Assembly (NCBI RefSeq): GCF_013031355.1
Contig: NZ_WPZO01000004.1
Span: 186,001-250,000 of the forward strand
Length of the DNA: 64,000 bases
Direction of reading: 5' to 3'
From: Ruegeria arenilitoris
Lineage (GTDB): Bacteria > Pseudomonadota > Alphaproteobacteria > Rhodobacterales > Rhodobacteraceae
A program made the translations under genes and the position numbers. The first letter of the stretch is position 1, and each line of letters opens with the position of its first letter. Of the stretch, positions 11,046 through 53,328 are shown piece by piece. The notes beneath the pieces are model-generated. The model had not been told where the DNA came from, did not search any database, and was given only the letters and a program-made list of their open reading frames with translations.

Positions 11046-11049
11046 AGCG

Positions 11050-12190: not shown

Positions 12191-12267
12191 GGCCCCGTGG
12201 CTCAACTGGATAGAGCAGCCCCCTCCTAAGGGGCAGGTTGCAGGTTCGAATCCTGCCGGGGTCGCCA
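12191..12267 (+). tRNA. tRNA-Arg(CCT)
   Basis: A full cloverleaf of 77 bases including an encoded CCA. The acceptor stem is GGCCCCG/CGGGGTC with one G-U pair, the anticodon stem GCCCC/GGGGC with loop CTCCTAA, and the T arm GCAGGTTCGAATCCTGC. Anticodon CCT reads AGG. Confidence 0.97.
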
Positions 12268-12270
12268 GTT

Positions 12271-13287
12271 TCAGGCAGTTTCGGTCTGTGGTTCAACGGT
12301 GCTCCAGACGCAATCATGGTCTGACAACGGTGTTCCTGTAGCGGAAATCGAGGTCAGAATTCCGCTTTCTACAGGTGCGAATCCTCGACCTGCCAGCCAG
12401 TCCAGTTTCATTTTGCGGTCCGGGTGCGGGGTGATCAGGCTTGGCCGTGTCGTCAGCCCCGGCGGGGTAAAAGCCCAGGAATAGCCATGGCCCTCGGCCA
12501 GATCGAACAGGGTTTCCCGCCGCCAGTCGAAATCGGGTGGAAGGTGGTTGCCGGTGTTCAGGTCTCCGCCAATAAGGACCGGCAGACCGGGGGCAAAGGC
12601 GTCGAGTTTCTGCAGCAACAGATCAAATTGAGCGTGCCGGTGCGCCGTGTCCGCGTTACTTTCCAAATGGGTCGAGACCACGCAGATGGGGCCGCTGGCA
12701 TTTGGGATCACGGCGGCGATGGCCATGCGGCCGCCGACGCGGGGTTGCTCGGGGTCGGCCGCACCGGCCTCGGGCGCGAACCAGTGGCCGTGGTCGTCCA
12801 GACGGATCAACGCGGTGCGTTCAAATGGCACCGAGGACAGGATTGCGTTGCCGTGCCAGCCGTGTTCGTTGAATTCATCCGTGCAGAAAGACCGTTCGGT
12901 CGGGCCGCCCAGATCAAGTTCGTGAAACTCCACCCCGAAGGCGTAGACCATGCCCAAAGCACGCGCCATCTCTTCGGTTGTGTGGCGTTGAGACGTGCGG
13001 GCCATACCATGATCGACCTCGGACAGAAGCACGACGTCCGGGGCAATCGGTTTAAGGTGGGCGGCGGTGTCTTCGGGGAACAGGCAGCGCTCCACATTCC
13101 AGGCCGCGACGGTGAATTGGGCGGGCAGTTGGGTAGCCGATGCCTCACCCCCCACCTGCAGCGCGTTCATGGCAGGCAGGCCGGACAACAGGCCCCGGTG
13201 CGCCTCGGACGTACGGGGTGCGGCCAGAATCTCCTGACGCTGATCCGGGGTCACAGCGGGGAGAACACGCAAACTTTCTGTAATCAA
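12271..13287 (-). CDS. Endonuclease/exonuclease/phosphatase-fold protein, last gene of the ugp operon
   Basis: A 338-residue EEP-superfamily phosphohydrolase with all catalytic elements: Asn in AAWNVE, Glu in LLSEVDHG, His in VVSTHLES, Asp/Asn in IGGDLNTGN, Asp in KLDWLAGR and the closing LSDHD. It has no signal peptide, so it is probably cytoplasmic. The start appears to be TTG 13287, overlapping the ugpC stop (TTGA). Its place after ugpC is where E. coli has ugpQ, a glycerophosphodiesterase of an unrelated fold. I infer a role in splitting imported glycerophosphodiesters, but a sphingomyelinase- or nuclease-like activity is possible. It ends 3 bases from the convergent tRNA-Arg. Confidence 0.8.
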
Positions 13288-14330
13288 AGGACTTTTCCCG
13301 TTTCCGCATCGAACAGCCGCAGGGCGTCGGGTTTGAGAGTGACGCGGGTTTCGCCGGTTTGAACGTCGTGGTCTTTGTTGACCATCACAGTAAAGGGCTG
13401 ATCCGCAATCGCACCGTGCAGCAGGCGGTGGGCGCCGAGTTCTTCCAGAATATCGACGCGGAAAGTGACCGAGCCCTGTTCGTCCAGCTCAACATCCTCG
13501 GGGCGTATGCCCATCGTGACCGGGCCGGCATAAGAGCCGGGGGCAGGCATCAGCCCGTCATACCCGTTGATCCGGACCTGCTGATCGGCCACCTCGGCCT
13601 CGATCAGGTTCATCGGCGGTGCGCCCATGAACGAGGCAACAAAGGTCGAGGCCGGGTTGTGGTAGATCTCGGTCGGGGTGCCGATCTGTTCGATCTGGCC
13701 TGCGTTCAGAACGATGATGCGATCCGCCATCGTCATCGCCTCGACCTGATCATGGGTCACGTAGACGGCGGTGGTACCAAGGCGGCGTTGCAGGGCCTTG
13801 ATCTCGATCCGCATCTGGTTGCGCAGTTTCGCGTCAAGATTCGACAGCGGTTCATCGAACAGGAACAGCGCCGGGTCGCGGACCACCGCGCGGCCCATGG
13901 CAACCCGCTGACGCTGGCCACCGGACAGCTGCGCCGGTTTGCGGTCCAGATACTCGGTCAGGTTCAGCATCTTGGCGGCGTCTTCCACCTTGGCGGCAAT
14001 CTCGGACGCCGGGGTACCGCGGTTCTTCAGCCCGTAGCCGATATTCTTGCGCACCGTCATATGCGGGTACAAAGCGTAGTTCTGGAACACCATCGCGATG
14101 TCCCGATCCGCCGGGTCCACATTGTTGACCACCCGGTCGCCGATTTTCAGCGTACCCTCGGTGATATCTTCCAGCCCCGCAATCATCCGCAGCAGGGTGG
14201 ATTTACCGCAGCCCGAAGGGCCGACTAGGACGACGAACTCGCCATCCTGAATGGTGAAGCTGGTGCTTTTAACCGCCTTAAAGCCGTTGGGATAGACCTT
14301 GCGGATGCCCTCTAAAGAAACCTGAGCCAT
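13284..14330 (-). CDS. ugpC: sn-Glycerol-3-phosphate ABC transporter, ATP-binding protein
   Basis: A 348-residue CUT1/MalK-type ATPase that energises the UgpAE channel. Walker A is GPSGCGKST (residues 37-45), the signature LSGGQRQR (135-142), Walker B LFLFDEP (155-161), and the H-loop lies in [17 protein letters not shown]. The C-terminal TOBE-like domain ([13 protein letters not shown] onward) is where MalK-type proteins receive regulation. The gene starts 11 bases after ugpE and overlaps the downstream EEP gene. Assignment to Ugp rather than another sugar importer follows from the strongly UgpB-like binding protein in the operon. Confidence 0.92.
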
Positions 14331-14341
14331 GCGCGTATTCC

Positions 14342-15235
14342 TTATTTATCGGATTCTGTGAGGCCCTTGACGAACCAGTTCTGGAAGAAGATGACGATGG
14401 CCACGGGTGGAATCATCGCCACGATGGCCAGCGCCAGGGCCTGCCCGTGTTCGGGGATCTGACTGTCGGTATAGGACAGCACGATCTGCTTGATGCCCCG
14501 GACCAACGTAAAGAAGCTTTCGTCGGTGGTGATCAGGGTCGGCCACAGATACTGGTTCCAGCCAAAGACGAACATGATGATGAAGATCGCCGCGATCATC
14601 GTCCGGCTAAGCGGGACGAGGATGTCGATGAAGAATTTCCACGGGCCTGCACCGTCGATCCGGGCGGCCTCGGCCAGTTCCTCAGGTACGGACATGAAGA
14701 ATTGGCGGAAGAAGAAGGTCCCCGTTGCCGAAGCGATCAGTGGCACAATCAGGCCGGTATAGGTGTTGGTAAGGCCCAGCTTCTGGATCGCCTCGTAGGA
14801 CGGCAGGATGCGCACCTCAAGCGGCAGCAGCAGGGTGGTGAAGATCATCCAGAAGGCCAGTGTCGCAAAACGCAGACGGAAATAGACAATCGCATAGGCG
14901 GCCATCATCGAGATGATGATCTTGCCCACGGCAAAGCCGATGCCGAGAATGAACGAGTTCATCAACATCAGCGTTCCGTCAACTGTCTGGGTAAAGCCGC
15001 CCTTTTCAAGCATGGCGGCGTGGAAATTCTTGCCCAGATCGTCGCCGATCGTCAGTTGCAGCCCTTCGCGGTGAATCGTCACCGCATCATGGCTGGCCGT
15101 GGTCAGCGCCAGCAGCGGCGGCAGGATCATCAGCAGCGAACCGAGGATCAAGACGACGTGATCTCCGACCGTTTCCCAGCGAATGCGGCGGGGGCGGTGG
15201 GTGACGGCGGGTGTTTCAAGCGTTGTGTCAGCCAT
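14342..15235 (-). CDS. ugpE: sn-Glycerol-3-phosphate ABC transporter permease
   Basis: A 297-residue inner-membrane permease with about six helices. It has the cytoplasmic EAA loop ([28 protein letters not shown], about residues 185-212) that docks on UgpC. The unusually long N-terminal periplasmic loop between helices 1 and 2 ([14 protein letters not shown]...) is typical of UgpE. It follows ugpA by 11 bases and precedes ugpC by 11, a tight operon. Confidence 0.9.
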
Positions 15236-15246
15236 GACTAGCCCCC

Positions 15247-16128
15247 TCAGGTATAGTGAATCCGGCGTTCGACCAGCCGGAACTGAAAGACGGTCAGGAT
15301 CAGCACCAGAACCATCAGGATCACCGATTGCGCAGACGAGCCGCCCAGATCATTGCCCCGGAAGCCATCCAGATAAACCTTGTAGACCAGCGTCATCGGG
15401 TTGTTGCCGGGTTCCCCCTTCATCAGCGCGTCGATGATGCCGAACGTGTCGAACAGGGCGTAGGTGATGTTGATGATCAGCAGGAAGAATGCGGTCGGCG
15501 CCAGCAGCGGGAAGGTGACCTGCCAGAACCGCCCGGTGGCCGAGCGGTTGTCGATCATCGCCGCCTCGCGCACGGAGCGCGGGATGGATTGCAGGCCCGA
15601 CAGGAAAAAGATGAAATTGACCGGGATCTGCTTCCAGACCGACACGATGATCATCGCGGTCGCGGTGGCGTTGTAGTCGACGCCCAGTTTGAAATCCCAC
15701 CCGAACATCTGGAAAAACTTGGTCATCGGGCCGGTGCTCTGGTCAAAGAACAGGATACCTAGGAAGCCCGCGACCGGCGGTGCGATCGCATAGACCCACA
15801 TCAGCAGCGTCCGATAGGTCTTGGCTCCACGCAGCACCTTGTCTGCCTTCACCGCCAGCAGCAGCGCGATGGCCAGCGAGAAAAACGTGACGAGGATGGA
15901 AAAGACAACCGTGAACCAGGCGATGCGCTTGTACTGATCGTTGCCCATCAACGAGGTGTAATTGTCCGCCCCGACAAAGGTTGATCCGAACCCGAACGGG
16001 TCCTGCAGAAAGAACGATGATTGCAGCGCCCAGCCCGCAGGCCAGTAAAAGAAAATGCCGATGATCATCAATTGTGGCAGCAGCAGCGCCACAGGTAGCC
16101 AGATATTGTCGAAGCCCGCGCGTTTCAT
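15247..16128 (-). CDS. ugpA: sn-Glycerol-3-phosphate ABC transporter permease
   Basis: A 293-residue MalF/UgpA-type permease with six predicted helices and the EAA loop (SVREAAMIDNRSATGRFWQVTFPLL, about residues 185-209). It pairs with UgpE to form the channel and receives substrate from UgpB. A hairpin lies in the 72-base gap after ugpB, consistent with lower expression of the membrane parts than of the binding protein. The start ATG 16128 leads directly into helix 1. Confidence 0.9.
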   Translation of the reverse strand: MKRAGFDNIWLPVALLLPQLMIIGIFFYWPAGWALQSSFFLQDPFGFGSTFVGADNYTSLMGNDQYKRIAWFTVVFSILVTFFSLAIALLLAVKADKVLRGAKTYRTLLMWVYAIAPPVAGFLGILFFDQSTGPMTKFFQMFGWDFKLGVDYNATATAMIIVSVWKQIPVNFIFFLSGLQSIPRSVREAAMIDNRSATGRFWQVTFPLLAPTAFFLLIINITYALFDTFGIIDALMKGEPGNNPMTLVYKVYLDGFRGNDLGGSSAQSVILMVLVLILTVFQFRLVERRIHYT

Positions 16129-44199: not shown

Positions 44200-44275
44200 G
44201 GGCCGTTAGCTCAGTTGGTAGAGCAACTGACTTTTAATCAGTGGGTCGCAGGTTCGAATCCTGCACGGCTCACCA
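44200..44275 (+). tRNA. tRNA-Lys(TTT), insertion target of the element
   Basis: A complete 76-base cloverleaf with CCA. The acceptor stem is GGGCCGT/ACGGCTC, the anticodon loop CTTTTAA gives TTT, and the T arm is GCAGGTTCGAATCCTGC. Its 3' part is duplicated at 52593, marking an integration site. Confidence 0.97.
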
Positions 44276-44276
44276 C
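44231..44276 (+). repeat. attL: 46-bp direct repeat within tRNA-Lys
   Basis: From the anticodon loop to the base after CCA, identical to 52593-52638. The bases on either side of the match differ between copies, so the repeat ends are exact. Confidence 0.93.
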
Positions 44277-44341
44277 TTTTTTCATTAATAACAAGCACTT
44301 ACGAGGATTCGTTTAGAGCGCGTATCGTGGCGTACGGCTTG

Positions 44342-44361
44342 CCGGAAGCAATACGGAAGCA
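44342..44361 (+). repeat. Left arm-type repeat pair
   Basis: CCGGAAGCAATACGGAAGCA holds two CGGAAGC copies 11 bases apart. It matches 52443-52462 at 19 of 20 positions, so the same motif flanks both att cores and probably binds the integrase arm domain. Confidence 0.6.
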
Positions 44362-44541
44362 CTGTGACAAAGATTTAAGTGTGCCTATTGGATCACTATG
44401 ACGCGGCGCGGCTATTGGCAGTGGTAGTAGCCGGACGCAACCTTTGGAACGCAGGGACACAACATTCCGGACAGGTCATATAAGGCCACACAGCTGTCGT
44501 TCACTGCGGCTGCAGCACCCAGCACATCGAACGGCAGCATT

Positions 44542-44691
44542 ATGGTGGAAATGTGTCGTAGTGGCGGCGATGCCGCGACAAGCAGACAACGCGTAGGTTC
44601 GGAGAGCCGGGTGCGAGACTATTTGATGACATTTTCAATTTCTTTGGCGTATGTATCAGTTGGCCTTCTTGCCGGTATTCCTTTCGCCTAG
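44542..44691 (+). CDS. Possible small tail-anchored membrane protein
   Basis: A 49-codon frame from ATG 44542 ends in a clear membrane helix (FSISLAYVSVGLLAGIPFA) right before the stop. A shorter version could start at GTG 44611, which has GGAG six bases upstream (26 codons). There is no recognised family. Small single-helix proteins are common in mobile elements as toxins or membrane modulators, but nothing here shows which. Coding status is uncertain. Confidence 0.25.
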   Translation: MVEMCRSGGDAATSRQRVGSESRVRDYLMTFSISLAYVSVGLLAGIPFA

Positions 44692-45002
44692 CGGTGAGGC
44701 ACACCAAACTCTAAGGCTCTTCAAATGGTTGCGGATCTGTTTCCAAAAGGTAAACAGTGTTTCCACCAATGGGGATTCGCCCTCAGGGTGAAACAGTGTC
44801 ATCCTGATGAAATGGGGCGACGCGCCTTATTTTTATGACCTAATTCTTCCCCAAGGGGCCAATGTGGATGGCGCGTCGTCCTTCGTGATCTTCAACATCC
44901 TTGGCGTTTAGACGTTACTATCCAACGGACACTCATACGGAAAATCGTAGTGTGGAACTTACGAAGACCACTCAATAAAAGACGGCATTAACCAAATCGC
45001 AA

Positions 45003-45602
45003 TTATTCGCAGCGACCCAGAATGGAGTTGGGTGTGCGAAACACGCAGCTTTTCCCGCTCACACAGTGAATATCCTGAACGCAAACATTCAACTCTGCGC
45101 ACAAGAATGTATTCGAGTCAAAATGCGCTCCTACGAGTACTTTCCCGATCGGGCAAGCATGCATACCGCTTCTTTGGGTTGAAGTGTCGATTTCCGGTGT
45201 GCCGAAATCGCCAAAATAGGACTGTGTGACAACATCATAAGACTGACAGTTGAACCCATTTCCATCGACGTGAACACCCACTACTGCTTCACTTGGACCG
45301 CACCAATGCATCGAGCCGCCAGGAAACGCGAACTGATTGTCCGTCCTGATACCCCAACTTTGACGTGCCGGAAAATCCAGCGCCCATTCCAGAGGCCCTG
45401 TACATAGCAATAAGTTCTGATCAACGTGCACTCCGGCAACCAGGAACCCTGGAGGGCAGCTATGCATTCCGTTTTGTTGAGTCGGTGGCTCATTGTCACC
45501 ATCAACAAACTCCGCTGCTTGAGAGGTCGACGCATTGCCAAAAACGAAAGCGTAGAGGGCAAAGATCGAAGCTATACTTTTAAGAGTATTTGTTATGGTC
45601 AT
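45003..45602 (-). CDS. Exported protein with three Cys-bearing GMHxC repeats
   Basis: A 199-residue protein of unknown function. Residues 1-30 are a signal peptide (FALYAFVFGNASTSQAA). Three 23-residue repeats follow at about 45-67, 97-119 and 146-168, near-regular at ~50-residue steps. Each has a Gly/Ser-Met-His-x-Cys start, a V-G-x-H-x-D-x-N core and a closing Cys, e.g. GMHACPIGKVLVGAHFDSN. Each repeat thus has its own cysteine pair, suggesting disulfide-closed modules with a conserved His-x-Asp. The C-terminus (CVQDIHCVSGKSCVFR, LGRCE) is a separate small Cys-rich motif like those in secreted knot proteins. It is cargo of the tRNA-Lys element, transcribed alone. Confidence 0.7.
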   Translation of the reverse strand: MTITNTLKSIASIFALYAFVFGNASTSQAAEFVDGDNEPPTQQNGMHSCPPGFLVAGVHVDQNLLLCTGPLEWALDFPARQSWGIRTDNQFAFPGGSMHWCGPSEAVVGVHVDGNGFNCQSYDVVTQSYFGDFGTPEIDTSTQRSGMHACPIGKVLVGAHFDSNTFLCAELNVCVQDIHCVSGKSCVFRTPNSILGRCE

Positions 45603-45724
45603 GACTTAACTCCTATTTTTGAAGAAAATTCAGACTTTGGAATTATACCATATTTTTACAATATTTGCGGATTTGCCGTGCGTCCTTTGAGCATCAGACA
45701 ATAATCACCGGCAAAACAAAGAAA

Positions 45725-45745
45725 GCCCGACCGCATAGGTCGGGC
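45725..45745 (-). terminator. Rho-independent terminator, minus strand
   Basis: An 8-bp stem GCCCGACC/GGTCGGGC with a 5-nt loop is followed, on the minus strand, by TTTCTTTGTTTTG. It lies 95 bases past the 87-residue gene and supports minus-strand transcription there. Confidence 0.75.
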
Positions 45746-45839
45746 CGCCTAGGCTCAGGACTCATAGCCAATAGATGACGAGAACGCTACGTCCGCAAAC
45801 TCGCCGTTATTATGCAGTTCGTCCAATGTCCGGTTTGCG

Positions 45840-46103
45840 TCATTCGCGACTTGCTGCACGAGCCAAGCTCAAAACATCGGTCAAGGTCCGCTCAGGGCTC
45901 AAAAGGACCTGTTCTGTCTCACCGCAGAAAACGACCGCTACGAGCCCATCTTGCCGAATGCTGCGGCAGCCACGAACGTCAGCTTCGCTACCGCAGAACG
46001 CTTGGATCATGCACAATAGGCCGACAAAGATGCCCAGAGTGACGAACCTTCGTATCAGAGTATCCAAACGACTCGCCCCCCCGCCCGAAGTCGTTTGGGG
46101 CAT
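45840..46103 (-). CDS. Hypothetical protein with one membrane helix
   Basis: An 87-residue frame with a strong ribosome site (GGAGGGAT) before ATG 46103 and a terminator downstream. It has one predicted membrane helix (FVTLGIFVGLLCMIQAF, about residues 20-36). A Cys-containing domain follows (GCRSIRQDGLVAVVFCGETEQVLLSPERT). No family is recognised. Overlapping plus-strand frames have no ribosome site and look like shadows. Confidence 0.5.
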   Translation of the reverse strand: MPQTTSGGGASRLDTLIRRFVTLGIFVGLLCMIQAFCGSEADVRGCRSIRQDGLVAVVFCGETEQVLLSPERTLTDVLSLARAASRE

Positions 46104-46259
46104 ATCCCTCCAGTGCCATTGAACACATGTGGTCAGGAAAGCGGCTCTCAGACACTGTCGTTTGATAGGCTGAGAGGAACCTCGGCACCATCAGCCAACT
46201 ATTTGAGAATCGACAACGTTTCTGATATTCTAAACACATAAGTTTTGAGGTTCTTTAAA

Positions 46260-46760
46260 ATGTTCAAACAAATACCGATAGGGATTTTGCGAGGTATATT
46301 GGCGAATGTTCGACCTCAGCGCGCCTCTGCAATTCTAACAACAGTTTGTGTCACAGTTGCAATCTTCAGTGCCTCTTCTGTCACTGCTGAGGAGAAGCCG
46401 GATGACCGCGAGTATATAGAAAATGAAGCGCTCCAACGCTGGTACTTGAAAAGCATGTGCGCGGAACTTGAGCGAAATGCCTACACTCACAAAGCAATGC
46501 ACAACCGCGAGAAACTCATGCGTTATTGCAGCGGTCAGGAAGGGTTGCCTCCTATTCGGTTCTTTCCGCAGATATTGGTCGCGCACATACCTGGGGACGC
46601 CGAGTATCCGGTTGACGACGGTCTGGACAAGTGTGATTGGGACAATGACGACCCGGGCGGTTGCGATGTCTTTGCCGATGTTTGTCTTGGGGGGTTGAAT
46701 GGCACTGGCTGGTGTGACGACGATGGATGCTGGTGCCAGTATGATCCGGACATCGACTAG
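46260..46760 (+). CDS. Exported protein with acidic, Cys-rich C-terminus
   Basis: A 166-residue protein with no recognised family. The N-terminus has a basic stretch, then a hydrophobic signal segment (ASAILTTVCVTVAIFSASSVTA) with likely cleavage before EEKPDD. The middle is helical and charged. The last 45 residues hold six of the cysteines among many Asp/Gly (KCDWDNDDPGGCDVF, GWCDDDGCWCQYDPDID), reminiscent of calcium- or metal-binding secreted domains. I chose ATG 46260, behind GAGG, over an upstream TTG. It is the only longer plus-strand gene in the element and points the opposite way to the replication block. Confidence 0.6.
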   Translation: MFKQIPIGILRGILANVRPQRASAILTTVCVTVAIFSASSVTAEEKPDDREYIENEALQRWYLKSMCAELERNAYTHKAMHNREKLMRYCSGQEGLPPIRFFPQILVAHIPGDAEYPVDDGLDKCDWDNDDPGGCDVFADVCLGGLNGTGWCDDDGCWCQYDPDID

Positions 46761-47074
46761 CGTCCCGCTCGGTCAGGCCCTTACCAGTAGCTCTGAATCC
46801 AGCGTCGATTGAGCATGCTGTTCTGTTTCCAATAACTGGTGAGATACTCGGAACTGCGCTATCAACTGGGCAAGTAATGCCGCCATTGGCGCAAGCGCGG
46901 CGAATTCACCTTATGTCCGCTCACCTGCTTTTTGCCACCTCGTTCTAAACGTCCGGAATGCGCGGTTCGTAGCCCACTGCATGAGCGAAAACCTGGAATG
47001 GGATTAAAGGCAGCTAAGGGCTCAAACTGCCCAAATGGACACGGCACAAAAGAAGGCGGGTGCTCGTCAGTGGT
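46761..47074. other. Non-coding stretch inside the element
   Basis: I see no gene, strong hairpin or repeat in these 314 bases. They separate the convergent 46260 gene and the initiator gene. Confidence 0.5.
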
Positions 47075-48226
47075 TTACGCAATGAACCGATATCTGTTCT
47101 TGGCTTCATGCAGCTTGTTTGCGGCGCGCTCAGGGTCCGCTCTTATGTTCTCTGCGAGCCTGTCTCCAACACTATCCATGAAATCACTCAACTCACTTTC
47201 GTGAGTATCTTCTAGTGCAGCAAGCGTGATCCCGAGGCCTGCCATTTGCGCCGAAATCAACCTAATTTGTTCGGCGCGGTGTACGTGCTTAACGCTTGTT
47301 GCGGCGACGTGGCTGCGCATTTCCAATAAGTCGTCCTCTGACGATCCAGTAACCAAATTCCAAATTTCATGATTGGGCCATCGCGCCCGGTTTCCATCCC
47401 CGTGATCAGGTTCGCAATATCGTATCTTCTTTAGCGCCTCTGCAATGACATCGCCGAACAGAGCATCGAATTGCGGCCATGTCCTGATCTGCCAACGGTC
47501 CTTGAGCAAGTCCTTCCCGGCCCGTACCTCAACACGCCAGACGCGGCTCTGAGACGCATCAGAATGGTCCATAGGGGGTTTACCAGCCCGCTCTAGGTTG
47601 GCGTTCCAGATGTCCCACCAGAGCGGTTTCTTCTTATCAATCACTTCGCGGCGTTTATCATAGATGATAACTTGCCGCCCCGGCATTTTGCCGACAGTGA
47701 CTGAGGTAAACTGACCTGACTTGCCATTGCTGCGCATATCATCTTGAGCAGTAAGATAGTCGGTGCGGTTCGTGTGGCTGTGAATGACGAAGTTTTCAGG
47801 AACGAGTTCAAACTCTGGCGCAAGGATATCAACGCAGAAATCGGCTCGACCGATACTGACTTGATGCGCCTCGAATCGAATTCCTAGCCTTGTTAGGGTC
47901 TTGTCAACATAGGAGCGCGCGTACCCAAGCCCTTGTGTCGCAAGAAGTGTTGAGCCTACGGAAATTCGGATACCCCACGGGTCGCGTGCATTTGGTTTCT
48001 TGAAAAACCAAGTGACGTCCAGGGGCCCGCCTTTGAGGATAAAGCGATATCCGTTGCCACCGTGAGGCAACAAATCAAAGTCCGCGCCACCATAGCTGAA
48101 CGGAACGGGATGCCGCTCTTCCTCGGCTCGTTCCCGTTCGGTGTTCAGTAAGTCGAACAGTTCCTGAGAGATATTCGCCTGAATCGAAAGTGCGATGGTA
48201 TCGAATCCGCGATGTACAACGTGCAT
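47075..48226 (-). CDS. Rep_trans/NicK-like replication initiator or relaxase
   Basis: A 383-residue protein resembling the Rep_trans family (rolling-circle initiators of pT181-type plasmids; relaxases such as ICEBs1 NicK). Visible: an N-terminal domain MHVVHRGFDTIALSIQAN; VSIGRADFCVDILAPEF, with acidic residues where the family has metal ligands; QVIIYDKRREVIDKKKPLWWD, matching the family YDK tyrosine segment; and SRVWRVEVRAGKDLL, the conserved Glu region. It would nick one strand and stay bound through tyrosine. It is downstream of the HTH and PC4-like genes, and its leader holds three strong hairpins that may include the nick site. No signal peptide. Confidence 0.68.
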   Translation of the reverse strand: MHVVHRGFDTIALSIQANISQELFDLLNTERERAEEERHPVPFSYGGADFDLLPHGGNGYRFILKGGPLDVTWFFKKPNARDPWGIRISVGSTLLATQGLGYARSYVDKTLTRLGIRFEAHQVSIGRADFCVDILAPEFELVPENFVIHSHTNRTDYLTAQDDMRSNGKSGQFTSVTVGKMPGRQVIIYDKRREVIDKKKPLWWDIWNANLERAGKPPMDHSDASQSRVWRVEVRAGKDLLKDRWQIRTWPQFDALFGDVIAEALKKIRYCEPDHGDGNRARWPNHEIWNLVTGSSEDDLLEMRSHVAATSVKHVHRAEQIRLISAQMAGLGITLAALEDTHESELSDFMDSVGDRLAENIRADPERAANKLHEAKNRYRFIA

Positions 48227-48257
48227 TATTGGGGTCTCCTTGGGTTCCGGTATTTCC

Positions 48258-48286
48258 AGAGGGGGGTGCTACAATCACCCCCCTCT
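48258..48286. other. 11-bp perfect hairpin just upstream of the initiator gene
   Basis: AGAGGGGGGTG/CACCCCCCTCT with a 7-nt loop (CTACAAT) lies 32 bases before the initiator start. It could be a nick-site cruciform (double-strand origin or oriT), a terminator for the plus strand (TTT follows), or a translation-control stem. Confidence 0.55.
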
Positions 48287-48330
48287 TTCGGCGAATGCCG
48301 CGCGATTTGGTTGAGGTTTGGAAAAGGGGC

Positions 48331-48402
48331 GGGCGCTACGCGCCCTTCGATAGTGCCTCCGGCGGGGCAGCTATTGTTTTGGGGCCGGGCTGGACGCCCG
48401 GC
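48331..48402. other. Two further GC hairpins in the initiator leader
   Basis: Stem GGGCGC/GCGCCC (loop TAC) at 48331-48345 and stem GCCGGGC/GCCCGGC (5-nt loop) at 48384-48402. With the one at 48258, there are three in the 181-base gap between the PC4-like gene and the initiator gene. Confidence 0.55.
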
Positions 48403-48407
48403 GGATT

Positions 48408-48632
48408 TCATTGGCTGGCTGCGGCCTGCTTCCGAGAAATCCAATTCTCTGCTCGTTCAGCGCATTTGGCGACGTTCAGTAGATCATTGTGAGAAAACGC
48501 GCTGGTGGTGCGCCAGTCGCCTTCCCCGTTCTTGTAGGACCGTGAGATATCGACAGAGAAGAAACCGTCATTGTCCCAGATCGTTGCTGTGATAAGCCCG
48601 ATTTTAAATTTGAAGGTGGATTGCTGTGTCAT
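48408..48632 (-). CDS. Small PC4-like element protein
   Basis: A 74-residue protein. The pattern FKFKIGLITATIWDNDGFFSVDISRSYKNGEGDWRTTSAFSHNDL is a beta-rich stretch, followed by a helix (LLNVAKCAERAENWI). This resembles the PC4/ssDNA-binding fold and small proteins often found beside phage- or plasmid-type replication genes; the fold is an inference. I chose ATG 48632, behind AAGGAG; the longer frame reads through the ribosome site. It lies between the HTH gene and the initiator gene on the same strand. Confidence 0.6.
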   Translation of the reverse strand: MTQQSTFKFKIGLITATIWDNDGFFSVDISRSYKNGEGDWRTTSAFSHNDLLNVAKCAERAENWISRKQAAASQ

Positions 48633-48765
48633 GGTGAACTCCTTGCTTGAATTGTTTGGCAGACACAGAAGGGGCGCAGGGTGGCGACACCCCACGCCCC
48701 TGAGAGCCATCCGGCCCCAAAATCCCGCTCAGCGCTGCCAACTCTGAGCGGGCAAAACTCGAATG

Positions 48766-48990
48766 TTAGGAAGGTGCGGTGCTGGTGTTGGCGACGCGCT
48801 TTTCGGCAATCCACTTTTGCAGATCGCGGCGCGTGTATCGGACAGAGCGACCGGACACTTTTACGAACAATGGTCCACCGCCACGCACCCGCCAGTTCTG
48901 CAAGGCACGAACGGAGTAGCAAAGGTAACTGGCGGCCTCTTTTTCGTCGATAAGCCGGTCTAAGTAGTCAGGATCAATCTGTGCTTGCAT
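48766..48990 (-). CDS. AlpA/excisionase-type helix-turn-helix protein
   Basis: A 74-residue MerR-like winged HTH: LIDEKEAASYLCYSVRALQNWRVRGGGPLFVKVSGRSVRYTRRDLQKWIAEKRV, the classic helix_turn_helix_17/AlpA pattern. Such proteins serve as excisionases or activators of integrase genes. The three 10-bp phased repeats beside attR are possible binding sites. ATG 48990 follows a GAGGCGA ribosome site, and the gene is the first of the HTH-PC4-Rep block. Confidence 0.82.
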   Translation of the reverse strand: MQAQIDPDYLDRLIDEKEAASYLCYSVRALQNWRVRGGGPLFVKVSGRSVRYTRRDLQKWIAEKRVANTSTAPS

Positions 48991-49093
48991 GGTCGCCTCG
49001 CTGCATTTCGTTTCGTTGCAACCAGAATGCAGCGTAGGCGCGGATTATTCTAATGTCATATATGGCTCAAAACTTGTCCATTTATGACATCCC

Positions 49094-49762
49094 CTATTTT
49101 TTAAGGCCAAACACGCGCAATGCCGCGTTGCCGATGGCTTGCGATGTCGGGAACCTGTGGCTGGGATCAACCCAGAAGAAAGCATATAGGAGACTGAAGA
49201 AATCGCTTTTGTAAGGTTGGTCAGCGTCGGTTTCGTCGTAGCGGTGCTTCTCCATCGGATCCCGGCCAGTATAGTGCTGGAAAACCTGCGCGAGCCTTTG
49301 AATTGTATCTTCTAGATTTTCATTTTGCTTCGGTCTGGCACGCGGACGCTTGTGCTGTTCCAGTGCCTCGCCGATCAGGAATTGAATGTTCGGCAATTTC
49401 TCTTGAACCGCATCTACGAGATGTTCGCTGTAGCCAAGACCTTCGTGACCAGAACCCAAAGAGTCTTCAAAGTAGTTTTCCGGCTCGTTACCCATACCCA
49501 CCTCGTCAAATTCCCATTGGATGGAAGGTGGCAGGTTGGAAAGCTGCTCCAGCAAAGAACTGATGGTCTTGTCCAATTTGCTGTAGATCGCTTTGCGCTC
49601 TTTCGCGGGCAGTGGTGTTATGCGCCGGTCTTTGGGGTGGTAGTGCTGAGCAATCCAACCAATGTCCGCAACAAACCCTTCCGCGATTGGTAAGGGGAGT
49701 TGCATCTGCTTCCACATGTTTTCGAAATCCAATTCGCTTTTCTCGTCCTGGTTATCCAGCAT
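49094..49762 (-). CDS. Hypothetical protein of the element
   Basis: A 222-residue, charged, mainly helical cytoplasmic protein with no recognised motif. The segment RPKQNENLEDTIQRLAQVFQHYTGRDPMEKHRYDETD and an aromatic end (FFSLLYAFFWVDPSHRFPTSQAIGNAALRVFGL) recall accessory proteins of integrated plasmid-like elements, but no function can be given. Its upstream region carries three copies of an inverted CCCTATGTAA-type motif, so it may be controlled by whatever binds there. Confidence 0.6.
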   Translation of the reverse strand: MLDNQDEKSELDFENMWKQMQLPLPIAEGFVADIGWIAQHYHPKDRRITPLPAKERKAIYSKLDKTISSLLEQLSNLPPSIQWEFDEVGMGNEPENYFEDSLGSGHEGLGYSEHLVDAVQEKLPNIQFLIGEALEQHKRPRARPKQNENLEDTIQRLAQVFQHYTGRDPMEKHRYDETDADQPYKSDFFSLLYAFFWVDPSHRFPTSQAIGNAALRVFGLKK

Positions 49763-49809
49763 AAACCCTGAGCCTGTATTGTTATTTAACGTATGGTTGA
49801 TGTGTGGTG

Positions 49810-49872
49810 CCCTATGTAACGTAACCTATACGTAGGGCGCTTAATCCCTTGCTGCTTTCCCTATGTAAGGTA
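49810..49872. repeat. Iteron-like module, copy 1
   Basis: Contains CCCTATGTAACGTA (49810-49823, +), ACCTATACGTAGGG (49824-49837, the inverted form) and CCCTATGTAAGGTA (49859-49872, +). Inverted and forward units are 21 bases apart, exactly as in copy 2 at 50616. Confidence 0.65.
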
Positions 49873-50049
49873 ACGTTACTGAACAACCCGCAGAACTGAG
49901 GTTCTCTTACTTTAGGCAGCGAACACTGAGCTTCTTGGGCACGGCCCTTGAGGCGTGCCGCATTGCTCAAGAAGTAGATGGTGGCACAGCGCCGTAAGAA
50001 AAGGGAACACACCTTCATGCTCCCCTTTCCTTGTTGTTGTTTGGAAGCT

Positions 50050-50415
50050 TTAGCCAGTCACACCGATTTGGGGGCAATTCTTCGTCTGCATGGCCTGCGT
50101 GATGGCGTCGTAGTTCCCTTTGGCTGCCGCCAATTGGTCAGCATGATCCTGTGTCGCAGCCATAGCCAACGCGGCAGGCCAGAACAGAACCAGTGTCACG
50201 CCTGTGATAACCGCGTCATCCGTTGCCGCTTTCTTTTGGTCTGCCGTCAACTTGTTAACGTTGCTTGCAATCTGGTTGCGTTCGGCGTGCAACTGCTGGC
50301 ACGAACGCCCATCGAAGATAGCTGGGCTGACATACGTGGCACCGACCTTATCCGGCGACTGCGCGCAGGCAGCAACGAAAGGCAACAGGGCAACGGCAGT
50401 GAAAAACCTGCGCAT
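50050..50415 (-). CDS. Small lipoprotein
   Basis: A 121-residue protein starting MRRFFTAVALLPFVAACAQS, a lipoprotein signal with lipidated Cys17. The mature part has a conserved-looking DGRSCQQLHAERNQIASNVNKL helix, a hydrophobic stretch (AVITGVTLVLFWPAALAMAA) and an end NYDAITQAMQTKNC, so two cysteines may pair. Similar short lipoproteins are common and uncharacterised. AAAGGAG precedes ATG 50415; the longer frame has no ribosome site. Confidence 0.7.
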   Translation of the reverse strand: MRRFFTAVALLPFVAACAQSPDKVGATYVSPAIFDGRSCQQLHAERNQIASNVNKLTADQKKAATDDAVITGVTLVLFWPAALAMAATQDHADQLAAAKGNYDAITQAMQTKNCPQIGVTG

Positions 50416-50615
50416 GAAATACTCCTTTACATACATGCGGTTATGGCTCGGACTGACTACGAAAATGAGGCTTAACAGTGGCAACCTGAGACTTTTTCGG
50501 TGTCCGATTTGAATTTTCTAGCAGGCACTGATTCATATCAGTTTTTGCCTGGCTAACCCACGCAGGGTCGAAAGATTCGCCGCGACCGAGTTGGAGCCAT
50601 CAACTAATCAGGTAT

Positions 50616-50664
50616 ACCTATATGTAGGGCGTCGCGGCTCCTGAGTTGGTTCCTATGTAATGTA
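50616..50664. repeat. Iteron-like module, copy 2
   Basis: ACCTATATGTAGGG (50616-50629) and TCCTATGTAATGTA (50651-50664), inverted to each other with a 21-base spacer. Order and spacing match copy 1. Confidence 0.65.
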
Positions 50665-50925
50665 GCTGAACACAACAACCCTTGGTGGTGTAGTGGGGGC
50701 GCGGAGTTCAAGGAGCGCAAATCATCACGACGCCCTGCGTGCTTTGCTTCACACGAACCGCAGATTCAATTGGCGCTGAAACCAGCAAGCCGAGCCAAGT
50801 TCACTTCCGGTAATTTGCGGGGGAGGTCCAACGATGAATCATGCAGGGCGGTAACCCAAATTCTTGGAATCACCTGTTTTACATGGCTGCTGACTTCAAT
50901 CAACACGTAAGACATCCACGGCTTT

Positions 50926-50934
50926 TGTGGATAA
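50926..50934 (-). promoter_or_regulatory. DnaA box
   Basis: TGTGGATAA is the complement of the consensus TTATCCACA. It sits within an imperfect inverted repeat (TCCAC...GTGGA), next to AT-rich DNA. Confidence 0.55.
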
Positions 50935-51085
50935 GTACGCGGATAATTTGGTGTTGAGTACGCGTTTCATCTTAAAAACTAAAGGTTTCGCTCTGTTTGC
51001 CTAAAATTTAAGCGGCAAATTTCATGTTTGTTTTACAAAGACTTTTTGCGCCTTTTTTTCTCGCGTCAAAAAGGAACACGGCTGT

Positions 51086-51111
51086 TGCGCGTTGTTTTTT
51101 GGCAACGCGCA
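51086..51111. other. 9-bp hairpin with T-rich loop
   Basis: TGCGCGTTG/CAACGCGCA with loop TTTTTTGG. It may be part of an origin or a terminator-like structure downstream of int on the minus strand. Confidence 0.45.
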
Positions 51112-51226
51112 TGAGGCCGGGAGATTCGGTGTACAACCTTACCTAGCGGCACCTGAGCCTAATACCCGTCAGCAAGTCTCACCTTGCGACTTTACCGCTA
51201 ACGCAGCGGGTCCCAGCAATGTGAGG

Positions 51227-52411
51227 CTATTGAACAACCCGCAAAGGGGTGGTCCGTACCTCTTTACGCACGGCACGTGCTAGACGGGCTGCAACCGATC
51301 CCGCTGCCCGTTGTACGGCATCATCTGCGAGATGTGCATAGCGCAGGGTCGTGGTCAGGTTCTTGTGACCCATAATCTCCTTAAGGGTGAACGGGTCGAT
51401 CCCGTCTTTCATCGCCACTGAGGCATAAGTGTGCCTGAGATCGTGTATACGGACATCGTCCAGACCCGCAGACTTACGTATTCGTCGCCACGGTTTTTGC
51501 AGGTTGTTGAGCGGTCCGGTCTCGGACTCGCCCAATATGACATAGGGATTGCCCGGTTGGCGGGGGAGGTCCATCAGGATGTCATAGGCTTCCCTCGGCA
51601 GGGGAATACGGCGGCGACCAGTCTTACTGTCTGGCAATTCCAGATGATGCGAGGTTACATAGTCCCAGCGCAGCGTCAGAATCTCGCTGAGGCGGCATCC
51701 AGTGTAAATCAGCAGCAGGAGAGCTGAGACCACGTAGACAGTCTCCGAGCCCTCTTCCAGCGCCTCTGCCAGCACTTCACCAAGCCGTATCTGTTCAGCG
51801 TCCGATAGGTAACGTTTCTTCTCTTCTTCGCGGAATTTCTTGATCCGGCGCGCGGGGTTCGATCCCGGTTGCCGCAATCCCCAATCCTCGGCCAAATTGA
51901 ACAGCTTCGACAACATCGCCGCCGCCCGGTTGGCCTGATAGGGCGTTTCCCGCAGCCCGTGATGAAAGGTGACCACATCGGCGCTAGTCACCTCAGCAAT
52001 CGGGATTGGGCCAAGTTTGGGACGGATGAACCGGCGAATGACACTGTGATAGTCGCGCGCGGTGGTCGGCTTGCAATGCTGGTCGACATATTCCTCTAGG
52101 AACCGGTCACAAAGACCCGCCACGGTTGGCGCGCGCCTTTTGGCCTGTCTCTCGGCAGAAGGGTCCGACCCACGCGCGACATCGCCCAAAAGCTGCTTCG
52201 CCTGCGTCCGCGCTTCCTCAGCGGTTAGAACGCCGTGCTGACCGATGGTGATCCGTCGCGTCCGGCGTCCGGCCCGGTACTGAACCAGATAGGTCTTCTT
52301 GCCGGACGGATAGACCCGCAGCCCAAAGCCGCGCATGTCCCGGTCCCAGACAAGGTATTCCTTGGCCTCAACGGCAAGCCCCTCAACGGCGCGCTTGGTC
52401 AGCTTGAACAT
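51227..52411 (-). CDS. int: Tyrosine recombinase (P4-type integrase)
   Basis: A 394-residue integrase. The N-terminal arm-binding DUF4102-like domain (LTKRAVEGLAVEAKEYLVWDRDMRGFGLRVYPSGKKTYLVQYR) is followed by a SAM-like core domain and the catalytic domain. Catalytic residues are Arg240 (TGCRLSEI), Lys263, His323/Arg326 (HDLRHTYAS), His349 (MGHKNLTTT) and Tyr358 (LRYAH). It integrates the element at the 3' half of tRNA-Lys. It lies 180 bases from attR and points into the element. The gap holds arm-type and phased repeats through which integrase and excisionase may control its promoter. Confidence 0.95.
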   Translation of the reverse strand: MFKLTKRAVEGLAVEAKEYLVWDRDMRGFGLRVYPSGKKTYLVQYRAGRRTRRITIGQHGVLTAEEARTQAKQLLGDVARGSDPSAERQAKRRAPTVAGLCDRFLEEYVDQHCKPTTARDYHSVIRRFIRPKLGPIPIAEVTSADVVTFHHGLRETPYQANRAAAMLSKLFNLAEDWGLRQPGSNPARRIKKFREEEKKRYLSDAEQIRLGEVLAEALEEGSETVYVVSALLLLIYTGCRLSEILTLRWDYVTSHHLELPDSKTGRRRIPLPREAYDILMDLPRQPGNPYVILGESETGPLNNLQKPWRRIRKSAGLDDVRIHDLRHTYASVAMKDGIDPFTLKEIMGHKNLTTTLRYAHLADDAVQRAAGSVAARLARAVRKEVRTTPLRVVQ

Positions 52412-52427
52412 ACCCAGAACACTCCTT

Positions 52428-52462
52428 GCTTCCGGCCTGCTTCCGGAAGCTATACGGAAGCA
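52428..52462. repeat. Right arm-type repeats
   Basis: Holds GCTTCCGG (52429-52436, inverted), the palindrome GCTTCCGGAAGC (52439-52450) and CCGGAAGCTATACGGAAGCA (52443-52462). The last matches the left-end copy at 44342 at 19 of 20 positions. Confidence 0.6.
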
Positions 52463-52550
52463 AATGGCGGCGAACTCTGGAGTAATTCATGAATTCAAGG
52501 CGCAACGAAGGTCAACTTAAATTACTGTTTTCACTTCATTTTTGTCAATG

Positions 52551-52580
52551 TGGCGAAATCTGGCGAAATGCGGAGAAATG
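52551..52580 (+). repeat. Three 10-bp phased direct repeats beside attR
   Basis: Blocks TGGCGAAATC, TGGCGAAATG and CGGAGAAATG lie end to end, exactly one helical turn apart, 12 bases from the attR core. Excisionases commonly bind such phased repeats. Confidence 0.6.
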
Positions 52581-52592
52581 GCTCTGGCCGTT

Positions 52593-52638
52593 CTTTTAAT
52601 CAGTGGGTCGCAGGTTCGAATCCTGCACGGCTCACCAC
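52593..52638 (+). repeat. attR: second copy of the tRNA-Lys 46-bp repeat
   Basis: Identical to 44231-44276. It contains only the tRNA's anticodon loop through CCA and lacks the 5' half, so it is not a functional tRNA gene. Confidence 0.93.
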
Positions 52639-52770
52639 CTTTTAGTACTGCGAATGAAGCAAAAGAATACAGATTTGGAGCATAGGTCTGCAGGTCTGGT
52701 TTTTGCTCAGTGACCACTTGAAAAGGTCCATGTTCGAACCTTGGATCATTGAGTTTTGATTTACTGCTCA

Positions 52771-53328
52771 TCACTCAGCGGTAATGCCGAACCCCAAGTA
52801 GACTGCTGGTACTTTGTTCGTGAGCCAAACACTGTTGTCGGCCTGGAAAAAATCAAAGCCGTCCTTGAACATTTTCAGCGCATCGACGCGCAAGACGACT
52901 GGTTTTCCGTGCCGCTGGCCAACGCTCTCGGCCGTGTCGGGATCCAAAGAAAAGTGAACTTGGCGACGACGCCCTGGATTCAGCCCGTCAGAGAAAATCG
53001 AGTCCAGATTTGCGCTGGCCGTTCCATGGTAGAGTTCGTCGGGCGGGCATTGGGCTTCCAGACCCAGATCCACGTCAATTGAGTGACCTTGAGCTGCTCG
53101 GATATGTAGGCGACCCTCAGACAGAGTGAAGCGTTTTTTGTCGCTGCTCTCAACCAGTTGAAAAAGTTCATCGCGGCTAAGCTTTCGGTTGGCTTTTTTC
53201 AAGTTCTTCAGCAGGTCATCAACTCGAGCCCAGCCATGCTGATCCAGCCGAAGACCGATCTCTTCGGGTTTGTGCCGAAGCACCAAACTCAAGAATTTAC
53301 TCTCTCTACTCACAAATGAACTTCTCAC
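52771..53328 (-). CDS. kptA: RNA 2'-phosphotransferase (Tpt1/KptA)
   Basis: A 185-residue KptA enzyme that moves an RNA 2'-phosphate to NAD+, giving ADP-ribose 1'',2''-cyclic phosphate. Features are SKFLSLVLRHKPEEIGLRLDQHGWARVDDLL (with catalytic RH), SHGYSI-like GHSIDVDLGL, LYHGTASANLDSIFSDGLNPGRRRQVHFSLD and VVLRVDALKMFKDGFDFFQADNSVWLT. Bacterial roles are unclear, since bacteria lack the eukaryotic tRNA-splicing phosphate; repair or ADP-ribosylation has been proposed. It lies just outside attR in low-density DNA. Confidence 0.93.
   Translation of the reverse strand: MRSSFVSRESKFLSLVLRHKPEEIGLRLDQHGWARVDDLLKNLKKANRKLSRDELFQLVESSDKKRFTLSEGRLHIRAAQGHSIDVDLGLEAQCPPDELYHGTASANLDSIFSDGLNPGRRRQVHFSLDPDTAESVGQRHGKPVVLRVDALKMFKDGFDFFQADNSVWLTNKVPAVYLGFGITAE

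Follow-up and report, generated by a model that had tools for sequence, protein, structure and literature searches.

Actinomycete AICEs such as pSAM2 carry an int-xis-rep module at tRNA genes and replicate by the rolling-circle mechanism. The PICMIs of Vibrionaceae encode int, alpA, and prim, all mandatory in the published model; according to the available text of their description, alpA and prim are separated by a single variable gene in many subfamilies, and defense genes occupy the interval from prim to the attachment gene fis (PMC10803314). For MOBT/Rep_trans elements, nick sites are placed within the loop of a GC hairpin in the accessible part of PMC9371924.

The window analyzed here is a stretch of 64,000 nucleotides in which an element of approximately 8.4 kb is inserted at the tRNA-Lys gene of a marine bacterium. 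We regard it, with moderate confidence, as an excisable, rolling-circle-replicating, site-specific integrative element that is moved by a helper, with conjugative mobilization as the leading route. Its features are as follows (a dot marks features given no strand):

44200..44275, +, tRNA-Lys(ttt), integration target, intact (ARAGORN)
44231..44281, +, attL, tRNA-Lys 3′ part plus a few bases, 50/51 identical to the distal copy
44339..44365,., putative integrase arm-type sites (GGAAGC repeats) adjoining attL, from sequence
45003..45602, -, cargo, 199 aa, putative signal peptide and repeated Cys motif (both by eye), ORF
46260..46760, +, cargo protein, signal-peptide-like N-terminus (by eye), ORF listed from 46245
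47075..48226, -, Rep, 383 aa, Rep_trans-type rolling-circle initiator or MOBT-like nickase (PF02486 in relatives, fold, residues)
48258..48286, -, GC hairpin AGAGGGGGGT-GATTGTAGC-ACCCCCCTCT, putative replication origin/nick site, conserved upstream of Rep
48408..48632, -, small protein, 74 aa, PC4-like topology, putatively ssDNA-binding, weak (alignment, AF2 model)
48766..48990, -, AlpA/excisionase-like HTH_17 protein (PF12728, 8e-8; phrog_66, 4e-10)
49094..49762, -, variable-slot gene, 222 aa, between AlpA and Int, related copies elsewhere
50050..50415, -, small lipoprotein-like gene (by eye), accessory, 98% in G412 and 34% in L088
51227..52411, -, tyrosine integrase, 394 aa, with arm-binding domain (PF00589, PF13356, PF14659)
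52426..52463,., putative arm-type sites (palindromic GCTTCC/GGAAGC) adjoining attR, inverted repeat I1
52593..52643, +, attR, partial tRNA-Lys 3′ copy, direct repeat

The first-pass annotation had described a 46-bp exact repeat of the tRNA-Lys 3′ half bounding about 8.4 kb, and this is confirmed by copies at 44231 and 52593 (start-to-start distance 8362). The direct repeat is 51 bp long with one mismatch, its first 46 bp are exact, and it is the sole direct-repeat family longer than 26 nt found between 43000 and 54500. A tandem tRNA remnant, which had been raised as an alternative, is rejected because the copy at 52593 lacks the tRNA 5′ half and is not called by ARAGORN; elements at several tRNA species behave alike. 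The GGAAGC motif reaches a density of 7.6 per kb within the 250 nt just inside attL and 8.6 per kb within the 260 nt just inside attR, compared with 0.69 per kb in the interior, and is present near these ends in 41 and 43 of 45 elements, respectively. The terminal GGAAGC repeats, the hairpin, and the 222-aa gene had been missed in the first-pass annotation.

Between the repeats, the tyrosine integrase (PF00589, 4e-20; PF13356, 4e-18) and the AlpA-like HTH protein were recovered as previously annotated, the phrog_66 family matched by the latter being annotated as “excisionase and transcriptional regulator.” Three proteins had been considered exported, and those encoded at 45003–45602, 46260–46760, and 50050–50415 do look exported, with N-termini judged by eye only. 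The cargo of the window element, namely the first two of these proteins, has no family match in Pfam, PHROGs, or NCBIfam, and the protein at 45003–45602 matched only itself among 41 genomes. The 222-aa slot gene received no functional assignment from these searches and has related copies in L061, L088, and L098; elsewhere this slot holds three further clusters, none of which is linked by hhalign (best E 0.014, probability 3%). As for the “PC4-like” protein, the gene stands, whereas its PC4 identity is weak: no sequence match was found, and the five top PDB hits of its AF2 model (pLDDT 92.8) are PC4 structures at E 0.12–0.23 and TM ≤0.38, so that it is weakly PC4-like and putatively ssDNA-binding.

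The gene set corresponds to neither a complete ICE nor a phage, as had been stated, with no conjugation or virion family among the nine element ORFs scanned. The window ORFs scanned contain no match to T4SS or T4CP genes, to Zot/G1P, coat, assembly, packaging, or capsid families, or to a primase, which leaves the int + alpA + prim set of PICMIs incomplete. Zot, an inovirus marker, has no match in the source genome.

The Rep_trans/NicK-like protein of the earlier annotation is present within the element, and its assignment to Rep_trans comes from its relatives and predicted fold. On its own, the window Rep matches nothing in Pfam above noise; PF02486 is matched by 14 of 25 aligned Rep family members (best 3.1e-5). 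The top four PDB hits of the predicted fold are chains of 4cij (E 1.7e-11 to 3.7e-11), a plasmid-type rolling-circle initiator from Geobacillus that is the nearest fold to the model, at modest TM-scores (0.35–0.38 by query, 0.47–0.51 by target). Judged from the alignment, Rep has the Rep_trans/MOBT catalytic residues: D9, D129, D133, Y189, K191, and E233 are invariant in 25/25 members and E194 is conserved in 90% or more. For RelSt3, the available text of PMC6499999 reports a motif III Tyr, Lys at +2, and Glu at +5 plus acidic residues, which fit Y189, K191, and E194 and D9, D129/D133, and E233 when mapped by motif and order without superposition. The N-terminal HTH typical of MOBT relaxases is absent, as the Rep model opens with a strand at residue 2, and NicK likewise lacks it in the accessible part of PMC9371924. 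Because the window element has no T4CP and Rep has no N-terminal HTH, Rep may be just a replication initiator. Two plasmids were reached by tblastn with Rep: one of Paenibacillus, through its “replication initiation protein” (E 3e-3), and a 1,750-bp one of Synechococcus, through a frame that carries no annotation (E 1e-5).

A GC hairpin of the form GGGGGGT-loop-TGTARC-ACCCCCC is located just 5′ of Rep in 89/89 unique Rep-upstream regions. Its core pattern occurs once in the window (0 expected), and the hairpins of L176 and L179 carry compensatory stem changes. We rejected a terminator because the loop is conserved and the window copy is not followed by a T-run. The loop TGTARC (GYTACA on the other strand) differs from the published CT'AA nick and is a candidate nick site only. 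The two small-plasmid records (Paenibacillus and Synechococcus) show no G-run hairpin with a TGTARC-type loop, and pPOP15.9 has a 9-bp hairpin with a different loop approximately 190 nt upstream of its rep.

Including that of the window, 45 distinct tRNA-bounded elements of 5.9–13 kb were identified, all with an Int match (some partial). They share a common order and strand of tRNA, cargo, Rep, small protein, AlpA, variable gene, Int, and att; the simple ORF caller used missed several short genes and gave approximate starts. Other Rhodobacterales have the int-HTH-PC4-Rep order at tRNA-Lys, and it was likewise found at tRNA-Met, -Thr, -Arg, and -Asn, and elements are arranged in tandem arrays in L092 and L123. 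The cargo is variable, and in 12 of the 22 elements scanned it strongly matches defense models (a plain count of hits). Rep relatives were detected in 32/394 genomes of the source bacterium's family and in 93 stretches of the named-genome scan. The earlier suggestion of a poorly described roseobacter family holds for the family and fails for the restriction to roseobacters, as relatives are found in Qipengyuania, Novosphingobium, Altererythrobacter, Sneathiella, Kordiimonas, and Rhodospirillaceae. The family is widespread and apparently undescribed: the available portions of PMC11389934 and PMC11476347 do not describe such elements, and that of PMC12324425 is unrelated to them.

Occupancy varies within the genus. 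Among 20 tRNA-Lys loci retrieved out of 24 other same-genus genomes, two hold related elements (G412 and G410) and one a decayed copy (G408), and this patchy occupancy led us to reject a vertically inherited island. An empty site is represented by G401, in which the conserved right flank begins approximately 45 bp past the tRNA. The matching position in the window's genome is 69189, so that 44276–69188 is extra there and the element constitutes the first 8.4 kb; none of the same-genus tRNA-Lys loci showed an empty site joined precisely to the 52644 flank.

We propose that the element may excise and recircularize via the tyrosine integrase with the AlpA-like factor, and that the circular form would be nicked by the Rep_trans-type Rep at the hairpin just 5′ of rep and would then replicate by rolling circle, perhaps with the PC4-like small protein on the single strand. 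Since transfer genes are lacking, transfer would depend on a helper, most likely through mobilization of the nicked strand by a resident T4SS conjugative element. Persistence could result from its role as a cargo carrier; more than half of the scanned sister elements have anti-phage defense in their cargo. VirB4 (T4SS) is present in 16/32 carriers vs. 97/362 other genomes (p 0.008, uncorrected for genome size or phylogeny), a modest association with half of the carriers lacking VirB4. We mildly prefer conjugation over phage transfer.

The strongest competing explanation, which we consider rather unlikely, is a satellite resembling PICMI or I55, in which infection by a virulent or temperate tailed phage leads to excision, rolling-circle copies, packaging, and transduction, and the defense cargo protects the host from competing phages. 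The PICMI layout of int, alpA, a replication gene, a variable gene, and defense genes is near that of the window family (PMC10803314, available text), and I55-type elements encode intY, alpA, often an inovirus Gp2-like protein, and in most cases defense genes, with a jumbo phage moving I55 (PMC12595487, available text). However, the window element has no packaging or capsid family, and two Reps (window and L162) had no tblastn match among 50,697 phage records. Two Rep-based IMG/VR scans also found no family Rep, although these scans miss relatives, as a family Rep was subsequently recovered by pattern from a 59-kb IMG/VR contig (L249). GpA terminase shows no positive association (7/32 carriers vs. 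126/362 others, p 0.17), a test that other terminase types and virulent helpers would escape.

An inovirus-derived, RS1-like satellite, with an inovirus-type origin and single-stranded circles packed by a helper filamentous phage, is improbable. The strict hairpin pattern has one match in IMG/VR, an integrated inovirus with Zot, secretin, G2P-type Rep, HTH_17, tyrosine integrase, and tRNA-Arg, whose Rep reading frame has the hairpin at its start. The relaxed pattern gave 83 stretches on 80 contigs, compared with 7 stretches for the scrambled loop control, and 54/80 contigs have a Zot relative by an iterated profile from one seed protein that may include other P-loop proteins. The best BFVD hits of the Rep model are also named Inoviridae proteins. 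However, Zot is found in 0/32 carriers vs. 4/362 others, which lowered our estimate, and neither coat nor assembly families were matched in the window element. When profiles were compared, the family Rep showed no significant similarity to the Rep of the L185 inovirus; among the 80 relaxed-pattern contigs, the family Rep profile matched L249 only and the iterated G2P profile L185 only. Moreover, ORFs directly beside the inovirus hairpins are short and not Rep, and in about 10 of 17 contigs laid out the first long ORF (Rep by eye) begins 400–710 nt past the hairpin, unlike in the window family. A genomic island no longer mobile and retained for its cargo is very improbable: decayed copies (G408 and L087) and truncated Int and Rep (L084 and L094) do exist, but the Int, AlpA, small protein, Rep, hairpin, and both att sites of the window look intact, and same-site elements in two other species have a core 85–90% identical and different cargo.

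More tentatively than for helper-dependent mobility itself, we suggest that an unnamed Alphaproteobacteria family might use an integrase/AlpA operon, a filamentous-phage-type origin, and Rep_trans as a chassis carrying one defense system each, moved between genera and tRNA sites as an ssDNA circle by the machinery of others. If true, hairpin, Rep, AlpA, and Int at a tRNA would constitute a compact signature of a defense-gene vehicle in marine alphaproteobacteria, and one- or two-gene cargoes between tRNA and rep would be ready targets for new defense systems. Relaxase-like Rep_trans elements, so far mainly from Firmicutes, would then reach another phylum, and a connection of inovirus origins with the Rep_trans nickases of plasmids and ICEs could be tested.

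Compared with known systems, the family resembles inoviruses in that both have a GGGGGT...TGTARCACCCCC-type hairpin and Rep proteins whose folds are distantly similar, and differs from inoviruses and RS1-type satellites in its tRNA-targeting integrase operon, in having no Zot or coat genes found, and in carriers without Zot. It shares with AICEs (pSAM2) an int-xis-rep-type module at tRNA and putatively rolling-circle replication, whereas no TraB-like translocase was found in the window element and the hosts are unrelated.

Similar to PICMIs as described in the available text of PMC10803314, these elements are small, with int, alpA, one replication gene, a variable gene beside alpA, and defense genes next to the attachment gene. 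They differ in having Rep_trans rather than a primase, a tRNA site rather than the site downstream of fis of the PICMI prototype, and the most variable slot between AlpA and Int rather than between alpA and prim; the hosts are different, and no helper phage is known for the window family. Pseudomonas I55-type islands, in the accessible portion of PMC12595487, likewise have a tyrosine integrase, AlpA, HTH, defense cargo, no transfer genes, an inovirus Gp2-like protein, and direct repeats at a small-RNA gene, but they range from under 20 to over 70 kb, vs. 5.9–13 kb here, and use a tmRNA site, with RadC and YqaJ frequent and no hairpin mentioned in that portion.

Compared with Firmicutes MOBT/Rep_trans ICEs and IMEs (ICESt3, Tn916, ICEBs1, and IME_Sag2603_tRNAlys), the window family is found in Alphaproteobacteria, carries defense cargo, has a loop other than CT'AA and no N-terminal HTH, and the window element yielded neither a TcpA nor a T4SS gene. 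According to the available parts of PMC9371924, PMC6499999, and PMC5704250, it shares with them the PF02486 nickase with the same catalytic residues, a GC hairpin (the nick site there, PMC9371924, and putatively so here), and, with some Firmicutes IMEs, a tyrosine integrase acting at the tRNA 3′ end.

The 8.4-kb insert at the tRNA-Lys gene of the window (G000:C26:186001-250000) is one of 45 distinct tRNA-bounded elements with the same order of Rep and integrase genes, and its features are as follows.

44200-44275, intact tRNA-Lys(ttt)
44231-44281 and 52593-52643, direct repeat (attL and attR)
47075-48226, minus strand, 383-aa Rep_trans-type protein (Rep)
48258-48286, hairpin AGAGGGGGGT-GATTGTAGC-ACCCCCCTCT upstream of Rep
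48408-48632, minus strand, 74-aa protein
48766-48990, minus strand, AlpA-like HTH_17 protein (AlpA)
49094-49762, minus strand, 222-aa protein
51227-52411, minus strand, tyrosine integrase (Int)

The first-pass annotation had proposed a 46-bp exact repeat and a lack of transfer and virion genes, and both points held: the two att copies are identical at 50 of 51 positions, with 46 bp exact, and the nine element ORFs scanned against Pfam, PHROGs and NCBIfam matched no type IV secretion, coupling, virion or packaging family. Among weak HTH matches, AlpA hit a "terminase small subunit" PHROG (E 0.006), which was taken as an HTH match. From right to left, the minus-strand genes between the att copies encode the integrase, a lipoprotein-like protein, the 222-aa protein, AlpA, the 74-aa protein and Rep. 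To the left of this block lie two unknown cargo proteins with signal-peptide-like N-termini, which Pfam, PHROGs and NCBIfam left unmatched; for one of them, a search of 41 genomes found no relative. The lipoprotein-like gene is flanked by direct repeats at 49811-49889 and 50616-50681, 792 nt apart (CCTATGTAA...AACAACCC, 77%; ACCTATACGTAGGGCG, 94%), as if the gene itself were an inserted cassette. A Tpt1/KptA RNA 2′-phosphotransferase gene (52771-53328) lies immediately beyond attR.

The tRNA-Lys locus was fetched for 20 of 24 other genomes of the genus, one of them ending at a contig end. Related elements occupy it in G412 and G410, with shared core stretches 85-90% identical, a distal att copy, and DNA differing from the window in the 44.4-47.0 kb part, and the G408 locus is a decayed remnant. 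In four further genomes (G416, G411, G403 and G402) unrelated DNA lies between the tRNA and a second att copy. Only about 100 nt adjoining the tRNA are in common in G396 and G417, and likewise in G416 beyond its second att copy. At the other fetched loci no core match was found. The conserved right flank begins about 45 bp past the tRNA in G401 and at 69189 in the window's genome, which indicates a hotspot with about 25 kb of variable DNA. Within this hotspot (44276-69188, from the window and fetched stretch L181), the element forms the first 8.4 kb and other variable DNA the next 16.5 kb; none of the fetched same-genus loci showed an empty site that continues exactly into the 52644 flank.

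Of 394 genomes from the same family, 32 gave Rep matches, some of them fragments, and a scan of named-genome contigs confirmed 93 relatives, of which 80 were kept. By record title, most of the latter come from Rhodobacterales, including Ruegeria, Celeribacter, Roseovarius, Loktanella, Sulfitobacter and Amylibacter. Further carriers are Qipengyuania, Novosphingobium, Altererythrobacter, Sneathiella, Kordiimonas, Magnetospira and one Rhodospirillaceae MAG. In the copy on the Ruegeria TM1040 megaplasmid, Rep, the small protein and the gene that lies between AlpA and Int are each annotated "hypothetical protein". A locus was accepted when Rep lay between a tRNA and a perfect copy of that tRNA's 3′ part at a distance of 3-14 kb; 54 of 104 loci (80 from named genomes, 24 from the comparison set) passed, nine of them fetched twice, leaving 45 distinct elements including that of the window. 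The 50 failures include G410, with a mismatched att pair, and many loci near contig ends.

All 45 elements contain an Int match (some partial) and keep the same gene order and strand, AlpA being detectable in 41 and the 74-aa protein in 33. Element size is 5.9-13.1 kb (median 8.0) and the att repeat 25-59 bp (median 47), at tRNA-Lys (14), tRNA-Met (14), tRNA-Thr (10), tRNA-Arg (5) and tRNA-Asn (2). When each element was compared with its closest neighbour by Int, the tRNA targets agreed for 34 of 44 (a single short Int was left out; shuffling gave a mean of 10.9 and at most 22); with Rep as the basis they agreed for 21 of 45 (shuffling gave a mean of 10.6 and at most 21). The motif GGAAGC occurs 7.6 and 8.6 times per kb just inside the two att sites versus 0.69 elsewhere (about tenfold), beside them in 41 and 43 of the 45 elements, as expected of putative integrase arm sites. 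Two elements occupy different tRNAs of one genome in Pseudooceanicola antarcticus (Rep 97% and Int 92% identical) and in Roseovarius MMSF_3281 (Rep 92%, Int 72%), and tandem pairs with an att copy between them were found at tRNA-Thr (L123) and in L092, which has a similar repeat and no tRNA within the fetched stretch.

Genes between attL and Rep vary in nearly every element, and at least four protein clusters, which hhalign finds unrelated, fill the position between AlpA and Int. Called cargo proteins of 22 elements (window not included) were scanned against PADLOC, and 12 gave matches at E <= 1e-20. Outer limits were assumed for L090, L096 and the first L092 element, where no att repeat/tRNA pair was found.

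PADLOC matches at E <= 1e-20, by element
L081, L085, L090: type IIG restriction
L082: dCTP deaminase
L083: C5 methyltransferase and PD-Lambda-5-like protein
L086: beta and capP
L088: ThsB TIR
L089: Dsr1
L092, first element: type I methyltransferase
L092, second element: AriA-like ATPase
L093: type I methyltransferase with specificity subunit
L094: type III restriction

A methyltransferase alone is weaker evidence of defence. Lesser defence matches occur in L064 (KAP NTPase in Pfam; PifA, 1e-9), L096 and L099, and no strong assigned PADLOC match in L061, L084, L091, L095, L097, L098 or L100; part of the matches were counted as totals with no protein named, and one strong PtuA match among these is unplaced. 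L095 has a single called cargo gene (10509-15437), whose 1643-aa product contains RTX repeats. L084 and L094 have lost AlpA and the small protein; in these a truncated Int abuts a truncated Rep (L084) or fuses with it in frame (L094); both keep their cargo, in L094 the type III restriction genes.

Among 25 aligned Rep members, 14 match PF02486 (best 3e-5) and 21 match phrog_1159, of unknown function (best 2e-9). A profile search of PDB sequences ranked 4cij first at an E of only 0.2, and the AF2 model (pLDDT 86.5) likewise has 4cij, the structure of a rolling-circle initiator from Geobacillus, as its best fold match, with all four chains on top (E 1.7e-11 to 3.7e-11; TM 0.35-0.38 by query, 0.47-0.51 by target), followed by TATA-binding proteins (7e-5). 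Three named best matches in BFVD are Inoviridae proteins. Six residues (Y189, K191, E233, D9, D129 and D133) never vary, and E194 is kept in 90% or more, a pattern that fits the residues reported for RelSt3 (PMC6499999), namely a Tyr followed by Lys at +2 and by Glu at +5, together with three acidic positions. Most MOBT relaxases have an N-terminal HTH, whereas the window's Rep lacks it and ends in a C-terminal helical domain.

The hairpin, with a TGTA[AG]CAC motif (one mismatch allowed), is present in all 89 unique Rep-upstream regions (102 before identical ones were removed), ending 19-41 nt ahead of the predicted Rep start. A perfect stem of at least 7 bp was found in 86 and of at least 9 bp in 48, compared with at least 9 bp anywhere in 16 of 1780 shuffled regions; stem changes appear compensatory in L176 (GGGGCGT/ACGCCCC) and L179 (ACGGGGGT/ACCCCCGT), and the window has a single copy of the core pattern, against 0 expected. 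Published MOBT/Rep_trans nick sites, CT'AA, sit in loops of GC hairpins of this sort (PMC9371924); the family's loop resembles these but has another sequence.

The strict hairpin pattern hit a single IMG/VR contig, L185, an integrated inovirus with Zot and a secretin, a Phage_CRI/G2P-type Rep (1e-11), HTH_17, a tyrosine integrase and tRNA-Arg. The hairpin lies within the long reading frame of this Rep, and we took the portion past the hairpin as the protein. A relaxed pattern gave 83 stretches (7 with a scrambled loop) on 80 mostly short contigs, and an iterated profile search found a Zot relative in 54 of these contigs. The element thus has a hairpin of a kind conserved in inoviruses. About 10 of 17 contigs laid out have a 390-430-aa ORF beginning 400-710 nt past the hairpin, read by eye as Rep. 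Many of the Zot-encoding IMG/VR contigs among L186-L264 share GGGGGTGCTGTAACACCCCC as a hairpin that hardly varies, frequently a few hundred nt ahead of a long ORF resembling Rep; this hairpin is a candidate inovirus plus origin. One 59-kb IMG/VR contig contains a family member (L249:1-7711) with AlpA, hairpin and Rep (E 4e-95), cargo that by our reading of the ORFs may be HerA- and SIR2-like, and, in place of the 74-aa protein, one that we take to be DUF736-like.

In the literature seen, with subscription journals poorly covered, no description of this tRNA-bounded Rep/AlpA/Int family was found, and novelty is provisional; the accessible part of a Sulfitobacter mobile-element paper (PMC13386836) mentions no such elements. 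MOBT profile matches in marine contigs have been tabulated, one of 11.7 kb nearest a Rhodobacteraceae plasmid (PMC11104534).

The element would probably be transferred by conjugative mobilisation with a helper. Among the 394 genomes, nearly one per genus, VirB4 (PF03135) was found in 16 of 32 carriers versus 97 of 362 others (Fisher p 0.008), GpA terminase (PF05876) in 7 versus 126 (p 0.17) and Zot (PF05707) in 0 versus 4 (4 of 394 overall). Dropping five carriers with short or broken matches by our own choice (G004, G013, G089, G212 and G243) gave 15/27 versus 98/367 for VirB4 (p 0.003) and 6/27 versus 127/367 for GpA (p 0.21). Because VirB4 is commoner in carriers and GpA and Zot are not, conjugative help is favoured, in a comparison that genome size and relatedness confound. 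In the window's own genome VirB4 was matched, GpA and Zot were not. Packaging by a phage is the somewhat less probable route. Half of the carriers lack VirB4, and the co-occurrence counts do not bear on virulent phages or on terminases of other types. Known satellites bear on the same alternative, since PICMIs have much of their layout in common with the family (PMC10803314), and I55-type islands, of which I55 is moved by transduction, resemble it in integrase, AlpA, Gp2-like protein and defence genes (PMC12595487).
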